Positions 13,101 through 16,100 of a DNA stretch of 31,537 nucleotides are shown one piece after another (position 1 is the first letter of the stretch; every line of letters begins with the position of its first letter). Origin of the DNA: Phoronis ovalis (taxonomy: Eukaryota > Phoronida > Phoronidae); NCBI GenBank assembly GCA_028565635.1, contig JAOXYB010027734.1, positions 1 to 31,537 of the forward strand, written 5' to 3'. Below the pieces are notes generated by a model, which saw only the letters and a list, made by a program, of their open reading frames with translations, was not told the origin of the DNA and searched no databases. The position numbers were made by a program, and so were the translations under genes.

Positions 13101-16100
13101 CAACACAGCATACTCTTCTTTATACTTGCTAATACTTCTCTCAAGGTCATTTATGACCTTGTTGACCTGAGCACCTTTCATCTTGGTTTCTTCTAATTCA
13201 CTCTCAAGTGATTTCAATTCATTTCTCAGAGGGTCAACACGTTTAATCATCTCAGCATAGTTTATCTATAGGTATTCCAAACAAAACTTTAAAAGTAAGT
13301 AAAGCTGGTCATCTTATTTCACACATTTGACATAAAACTCAAGAACCTATACAAATATAAGAGACAGCAAACACCATCTGGGCTCTGTCATCTTGTACAT
13401 CTTATTCATTGTCTTAATATATCGTACTAGTAAATGAATTGCTTTTTAAAGGAGCCTTGATACGTACCTTACATAACAGTTTGATAAGTGTTATTTTACC
13501 TGTGCAATAGCCCACTTAACCATAGGACCACAGGCTAAGCTGGCTCTGTTGACTTTCTCATAGTTGAAGTCAGGGTTGTTAACATATTTAGACTTCATCT
13601 TGCTACGGATATCATCACTAAAATGGATCAAAAGATTATTATAGTTGTCTGTAGGTCTTAGTTTTAAGGAAAGAGAAAAAAGAATTAGTAGATGACAATT
13701 TAAACTTAAATATTATATAAGCCATATTCATGATCAGTGCTACCAAATGATGAGTGAAGAGAGATTGGCCTGTATACTCTGCCAACATAAAGGAAACGTT
13801 GTGTACAGTTTCACTAGAATATACGATAGAATAGGATATTCAGTCTTTTTATCTATAAATTATAAAAAATAAGCGACTAGTTCTAAATGATGAAACAATG
13901 CATCCAACAATATGGGAAATATTTCATCTTGTATAAGAGACCATGGGAGAATATCAACAACTAGTATTATAACTTACGACATATAGGCAGTTTTGAAGTT
14001 CACGATAGCTGAGATAAAGCTATCACGAATCACAAAACTACGAATCATTTTCCAGTCACTGGTATCTTCTCCAAACAGGAAACACATGGCTTCCAGTGCT
14101 GTCTTAACCAGTAACGGAGGATTTTGCATGGAGCGGATTTCCACAAGATGTTGTCTCTTGATAGATTTGACAGCTGCATGATGCATTTCAAAATGAGAAT
14201 TATTAAAAACAACTATATCAGAATTCACAAGTGACTGCTTCTACAATCAGAATTTTGTTCCAATTGGACTAACACAAAAAAGGTTCATAATAACTCGATT
14301 AATTCATAACAGTTCTGCTATAAAAGAAGTGTTTAGAATAAGCACAACAAAGGGGGATGATGTTAGGCGGTCACTTGTAAATCTGATGCACATTTTCCCC
14401 GTAACAACTTACGTTATGTCCTCAGTTGTAAAATTCACAATAGTGGAGATAAAGTTATCTCTCATTATAACAGATCTTAATGCTTTCCAATCCAAATTAT
14501 CTTCACCAAGCAAAGTACAAATAGCTTCAGTAGCCATTTTGATGATTGCTGGAGGATTAACAAGAGACCTCACTTCAACCAAATGTTGCTTCTTAATGGA
14601 TTTCACAGCTGAATAAAACAACACATAAAACATGCAGCAAAACAAAATTAAATTACACTAATGTAAATATGCTGGAAGAACCTTTTATTTTTACATATGG
14701 TGATAGGGAACAAATAAATGAACCTGTTTAAGAAAACAATTAGAATAGCCATTTTTCACAATTCTGTGGGAGAAAACTTGGATACCGTACACAGGATATC
14801 GGTTGAGATGACAAATAAATAATAATATTACATTAATTTGGAATATATTTTGATTCTTCTTTTATACAATAAAACATTCTTCCAATATCGATTAAATTAA
14901 CCAACTGAATTTATTCTTAACACATTTTATAACTTATAGGAACAAATATAACAACATATCATAAATATATAGGCAAGTCTTTAAAACATTACGGAAAACT
15001 GAATTAAACAATTACATAAGGAAATGGGATACAAAATATAACACAACTCATAAACAGATAAAGTACATAAATTATTGGGTTATCAAGCTATAATTCATTT
15101 TAAATCAAATAGCTACCACATCATGGTCATCCGGAATAAAAAATACTTTAATAAATTTCTAGGTTTATCACATTAAAACGAACTGAACAAAGCAGTTAAC
15201 TGGGTACACTTATCATACCTTGCTGGGCTTCAATAACAGCTGGTTCCACCTGAGCCAGATCTTCTCTCACCAGTAACTGTTTCTCCTGGATAGCTTTACT
15301 CTGGTGCTGCAAGTGCTGTTGGATTTCTTGTGATGTAACTTTCTTCTTTTCAGCTTCTTGTTGGTCTTTCACCTGCAATCATATGCCATATTACATACAA
15401 ATATAGAGCGTTAACCAATATTATACAAATAAAAAACATAAAAGTCAGTCACACAAATATACTAAATGTAAATATGATCATATTTCTTAAATTTTAATTT
15501 CAACATGACAGTAAACAAACATCATACAAAATGTCCTTCATATTTTACAAATTAACAGTAGAGTATGGAGTAACTTTCCCTTGATACTACTAGAAACATT
15601 CAATTCTGCTTGTACAACATATTAACTATTCATACCATCTGTTTCAACTTAGCATTAGCCGAAGCATTCTTTTCTTCCAACTGTCGTCTTTTGATCGACA
15701 AGGATTTCTGTAATTCTTCGACTTGTTCCACAGTTTCTCTGATCTTCTGCAGACCAATGTTCAAGTGAAGTTGTTGCTCTTCCAGATCAGAGCGTTTTTC
15801 ACTGTAGAGCTTTACCTAGTCACAAAAATGCAGAAGTAACCTCACTGCAGAGTAAAATAAGTTAAAGATCCATTCTGACAATGAAGTTGATATGTTTCAC
15901 AAATAGTATTGAAATATACTTTCTTCTTTGTTATATTTTCTTTCTTTACAAAGATCAATGTTGAAAATTACTAAATATTTACATTATTGTAGCAAGAGGA
16001 AACATATACTAGTATTTAGGTCTACAACTACTTTTCTGTTAAGTAGTTCATACCTGTATGTACTTTAATTCAACAATTTGCTGTTAGCCTACAGTAACAT

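Follow-up and report, generated by a model that had tools for sequence, protein, structure and literature searches.

In the usual view, a single heavy chain of cytoplasmic dynein 1 serves most minus-end transport in animals, and many genes encode their kinesins. On the minus strand of a 31,537-nt stretch of the Phoronis ovalis genome (contig JAOXYB010027734.1 of assembly GCA_028565635.1; hereafter, the window) lies a gene for this heavy chain, the 5′ part of which is beyond the window. Two neighboring exons of 196 nt in this gene, termed A and B, are most likely tandem-duplicated, mutually exclusive exons yielding two dynein 1 heavy chains.

The closest described system is the cytoplasmic dynein heavy chain SmDHC1 of Schistosoma mansoni, a test case in which a mutually exclusive exon was predicted from the genome (Pillmann et al. 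2011, PMC3228551). A first-pass annotation of the window knew of no description of such a pair, without excluding one; a mutually exclusive exon in a cytoplasmic dynein heavy chain was already published in that paper. As in the A/B pair, the two SmDHC1 exons are homologous, equal in length and bordered by split codons at both ends. The available text of that paper gives no protein region, function or transcripts for them. Among the matches listed for dynein splicing in the open-licence literature, SmDHC1 was the sole precedent, a description elsewhere being possible; the available parts of PMC3583065 and PMC2674883 contain nothing on an alternative dynein exon. In the muscle myosin heavy chain gene of arthropods, too, tandem homologous exons allow one gene to vary its motor domain (PMC3228551). 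That gene encodes another motor and has several exon clusters; A and B are a single pair, located where dynein contacts its track. Unlike the gene with the A/B pair, DYNC1H1 of human and mouse is described with a single isoform and 78 exons in the accessible portion of PMC3824068. Judged by its sequence, the Phoronis pair is very probably a further case of a known exon type, at an unusually telling place in dynein.

The arrangement of the locus is as follows.

4003..31216, minus strand: part of the dynein heavy chain gene covered by the model; the last open reading frame (ORF), 4003-4284, ends at 4003
15219..15372, minus strand: shared upstream exon, from coiled coil 1 of the stalk; its 3′ end gives one base of a split codon, donor AAG/GTATGA
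14609..15218, minus strand: intron preceding exon A, 610 nt
14413..14608, minus strand: exon A, 196 nt, encoding the coiled coil 1 tip plus helices H1-H3 of the microtubule-binding domain; splice sites of ordinary strength
14174..14412, minus strand: intron between A and B, 239 nt
13978..14173, minus strand: exon B, 196 nt, predicted alternative version of exon A; weak splice sites
13618..13977, minus strand: intron following exon B, 360 nt
13500..13617, minus strand: shared downstream exon, remainder of the microtubule-binding domain
13050..13265, minus strand: next shared exon, coiled coil 2

The gene model is a simple custom exon chain with assumed splice-site weights. With A or with B, the chain runs through 3,256 residues in a single frame, and beyond the last ORF it continues into chance pieces. 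In both exons, the two bases at the 5′ end complete a split codon and the two bases at the 3′ end start the next one; each exon is preceded by AG and followed by GTAAGT. In human numbering, the exon spans residues 3295 to about 3360. A and B share 40 of 66 residues, including the two intron-split codons (39/64 full codons), and 122 of 196 nt. The identity to the mammalian exon is 46/66 for A and 41/66 for B. The anatomy given by the first-pass annotation (coordinates, lengths, acceptors and donors, equal phases and open frames) was borne out, as were its estimate of about 60% peptide identity and its placing of the exons at the coiled coil 1 tip and the first helices of the microtubule-binding domain.

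Reading frame, splicing and coding constraint

Since 196 is not a multiple of three, only the use of one of the two exons preserves the frame. With A only or B only, the frame is open through the following exons. With both exons together, the test stretch is open for 139 residues and meets a stop 22 codons into B; with neither, it is open for 58 residues. Out-of-frame messages with introns downstream should be destroyed by nonsense-mediated decay. In the proposed scheme, splicing would connect the exon ending at 15219 to one of A and B, and the chosen exon to 13617. The resulting two full-length heavy chains would be identical except for the coiled coil 1 tip and the microtubule-binding-domain helices H1-H3, and messages with both exons or neither would be out of frame and destroyed. 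The frame shift alone could suffice as the means of exclusion. Both isoforms are expected to be made, A as the default form and B, with its weak splice sites, as the regulated form.

Several observations weigh against mutually exclusive splicing. The splice sites of exon B are weak, better than 4/49 acceptors and 6/48 donors of the gene (those of exon A are ordinary, better than 19/49 and 19/48). With regard to competing RNA structure, a known mechanism of exclusion, the flanking introns show no unusual pairing: for the three intron pairs, 27, 48 and 24 of 60 shuffles paired equally well. When run freely, the exon chain favored a version of A truncated to 102 nt followed by B (682.0) over A alone (680.3) and B alone (678.1). 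The product of truncated A and B is in frame; the inner donor at 14507 (TTG/GTGAAG, with the GT inside exon A) is poor, with a score of −0.4. It is possible, on the sequence, that this or another product is made besides the A-only and B-only messages. In addition, A and B could be shown together in no other species.

The alternative that survives best, though improbable, is that B is an unused, decaying duplicate and only A is spliced into dynein. A search with exon A gave 145 matches among 147 candidates; the relatives’ rows come from the 120 listed of these 145 matches, and 85 of the rows were combined with A and B in a tree of 65 columns. Decay is suggested by the splice sites of B, which are among the weakest of the gene, and by its end branch, the longest of the tree (0.64 vs. 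0.23 for A). B also departs at five columns conserved in at least 90% of rows (positions 7, 29, 30, 34 and 52), and A does so at positions 23 and 29.

However, the frame of B is open, with no insertion or deletion and with intact sites; the chance of an intron-like stretch of this length being open in a given frame is about 0.01. Compared with the canonical consensus, B has 23 changes, mild in their BLOSUM sum, and none of them falls at the 13 columns invariant in the 85 other rows. Among 2000 neutral simulations started from this consensus, 7 equaled B at the invariant columns and 37 reached its BLOSUM sum. The corresponding counts were 10 and 54 of 2000 from P0008 (the nearest row, picked afterwards) and 12 and 42 from A. 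Exon A changes one of the 13 invariant columns (position 23), and 441/2000 simulations were as low. The A-B differences number 23, 13 and 38 at codon positions 1, 2 and 3, respectively. The nonsynonymous (42.5/151.3 sites, not saturated) and synonymous (30.5/40.7 sites, saturated) counts between the exons describe both branches jointly and not B alone. B does not look dead, and both copies appear to be under coding selection.

AlphaFold models of the A and B fragments contain the same four helices, with a predicted local distance difference test score (pLDDT) of 71.4 for A and 82.8 for B; they show compatibility only, because alignments of relatives guide both. The best matches by E-value in the PDB are mammalian dynein-1 stalk tips, with TMq 0.74 for A and 0.85–0.88 for B. 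The closest solved relatives of both exons are the mouse and human dynein 1 heavy chains, and axonemal chains are far behind.

Less probable still is that B serves mainly as a switch of dynein amount, being added to A so that the frame shifts and the message is destroyed. The stop 22 codons into B agrees with this, but B preserves its coding frame, the exon length and the invariant microtubule-binding residues, none of which a poison exon would have to preserve.

The doubling is confined to this exon. An ungapped comparison of the 64 full codons of A with 62,692 frame positions in the window scored 64 for A itself, 39 for B and 14 for the next best position. A tblastn comparison of 537 stop-to-stop ORFs of at least 30 amino acids with the window (E ≤ 0.01) returned the A/B pair and its antisense, and otherwise one 10-residue match (E 0.010). 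A length of 196 nt occurs in none of the 49 other modelled exons. The assembly was searched as 77 Mb in 4,805 contigs, and strong matches were found at the places of A and B only, the remaining ones reaching at best E 0.017 when B was the query and 8.8e-6 when the canonical row P0073 was. No dynein 1 heavy chain gene besides the one with the A/B pair was found in these 77 Mb. With Pfam, the 66-residue piece of A matched PF12777 only (E 0.065), and that of B matched no dynein family (RHD3_GTPase, 0.01; DUF1965, 0.12), all three being below the cut-off. An assembly artefact, in which exons of two gene copies were merged into one contig, is very hard to credit even in so fragmented an assembly, given that the self-scan shows this exon alone doubled, the gene runs in order along one contig, the region has no second copy in the sequence searched and A and B are too different in nucleotide sequence to be alleles.

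A plus-strand frame at 14197-14616 (139 amino acids), which overlaps exon A and part of the intron between A and B in antisense, is probably due to chance.

The microtubule-contact surface

Contact residues were mapped by alignment to exon positions 7, 12, 14, 42, 45 and 50, with a mouse–human numbering shift that we take to be two; the mapping from yeast is approximate only. Human disease variants are known at two of these positions, K3336 and R3344. The first-pass annotation had stressed these two residues. Both are inside the exon, at positions 42 and 50, and both are unchanged between A and B; hence, the disease positions do not distinguish the isoforms. E12, R14 and R45 are likewise identical in A and B. 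Mutually exclusive splicing, as proposed in the same annotation, appears to be the best reading of the frame, the constraint on B and the fit of the models to the solved domain, with the difference between isoforms lying at residues other than those it emphasized.

PMC7042235 describes how helices H1 and H3 form salt bridges with tubulin, and in PMC6629372 mouse K3299 adjoins beta-tubulin D427 and mouse R3337 adjoins D163. The charge of the tubulin-contact residues named in the available parts of these two papers is kept in both exons. PMC7042235 has R3334 where the mapping puts position 42, which is K in the mouse chain.

The differences between A and B include residues of helices H1-H3. At position 7 (human K3301), K is found in A and in 84/85 other rows, and R in B and P0103. 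The net charge of the exon without His is 0 for A, +3 for B and +1 for the mammalian exon. From this charge, B, three charges more basic and with R for K at the residue contacting beta-tubulin D427, would grip microtubules differently and probably more tightly. A splice swap of the microtubule-contacting helices would provide two dynein motors of different grip, perhaps for particular tissues or kinds of tubulin. If so, the exons would offer two naturally occurring binding domains, each maintained by selection, from which it could be learned which residues set the affinity of dynein, close to sites of known human disease variants.

Relatives of the exons and the age of the split

By eye, most listed rows end just ahead of AVKS, as expected at an exon border. 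Rows identical to the mouse chain over 65 residues (e.g., P0036) stop, by eye, before AVKS and after EEI, and the human and mouse exon borders therefore look the same as those of A and B.

In the tree, A belongs to a 20-row group (A and 19 others) with support of 100/97 among the 85 rows; the group was named after the tree had been inspected. Its other rows are P0002, P0003, P0004, P0006, P0012, P0017-P0020, P0027, P0031, P0045, P0059, P0060, P0062, P0081, P0090, P0093 and P0100. The group is characterized by L16, T/V32, D/N/E38, mostly L/V39 and L/M44, and the corresponding residues of B are M, F, T, S and I. The 19 rows also group without A (support 97). When B was omitted, a tree holding the 19 rows together without A was not rejected (it even exceeded the quick free tree by 12.85 log units; p value of the approximately unbiased test, p-AU, 0.754). 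The nearest rows of B are P0008 (71%) and P0103 (94/73). The placement of B within the A group was not rejected (p-AU 0.377 and 0.534), nor was a tree with A and B as sisters, which was 20.05 log units worse (p-AU 0.11). The trees are compatible with more than one age of the duplication: A and B may be sisters, B may belong to the A group or A may stand outside the 19 rows. The canonical relative P0073 is 70% identical to A and 63% to B, which makes A the more conservative copy.

The grouping of A and its shared residues hint at two exon families that split early. It is conceivable, though rather doubtful, that the two-version dynein foot is an old trait shared among spiralians, in which an A-family exon was kept beside a second one, the exon doubled in Schistosoma corresponds to A and B, and two grips, one of them regulated and more basic, have existed since before the phyla split. 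Against an old shared pair, the contigs of the A-type rows P0045 (739,623 bases) and P0059 (1,518,196 bases) had no second match of a same-size contig among the 120 listed of 145 matches, with one size given per cluster. A protein search with B gave no candidate, which is not to be taken as absence, because P0029 shares seven 5-residue words with B. Pattern matches to further loci numbered 251 in viral contigs and 86 in genome contigs, none of them confirmed.

Other features of the window and the assembly

The Rfam scan of the window gave no match. A long intron of the dynein gene contains an interspersed repeat of about 1.27 kb (24909-26181) with no frame longer than 80 amino acids. It has 43 more full or partial matches in the searched assembly at 77–96% identity (a lower bound), and it includes a perfect 25-bp tandem repeat in two copies at 25423-25473.

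The assembly has one COX1 match, on a contig of 15,713 bases (C1114), with TGA inside the frame. On mitochondrial loci, ARAGORN predicted 23 tRNAs with the mitochondrial code and 0 with the bacterial code. The gene names on the contig, as assigned by reading the translated frames, give one block of cox3-atp6-nad3-nad2-cox1-cox2 and a block on the opposite strand of nad1-nad6-cob-nad4L-nad4-nad5. The trnP gene is opposite to nad6 and nad1, trnD adjoins cox2, and atp6 is displaced, lying between cox3 and nad3. By this gene order the animal is probably a lophotrochozoan and, unlike Schistosoma, no flatworm; the displaced atp6 may, with low confidence, point to a phoronid. According to the available parts of PMC2728741, PMC1544340 and PMC11488289, a preference for one strand is found in annelids, brachiopods, acanthocephalans and flatworms, and the order in two strand blocks in molluscs, Phoronis and, with a further inversion, entoprocts.
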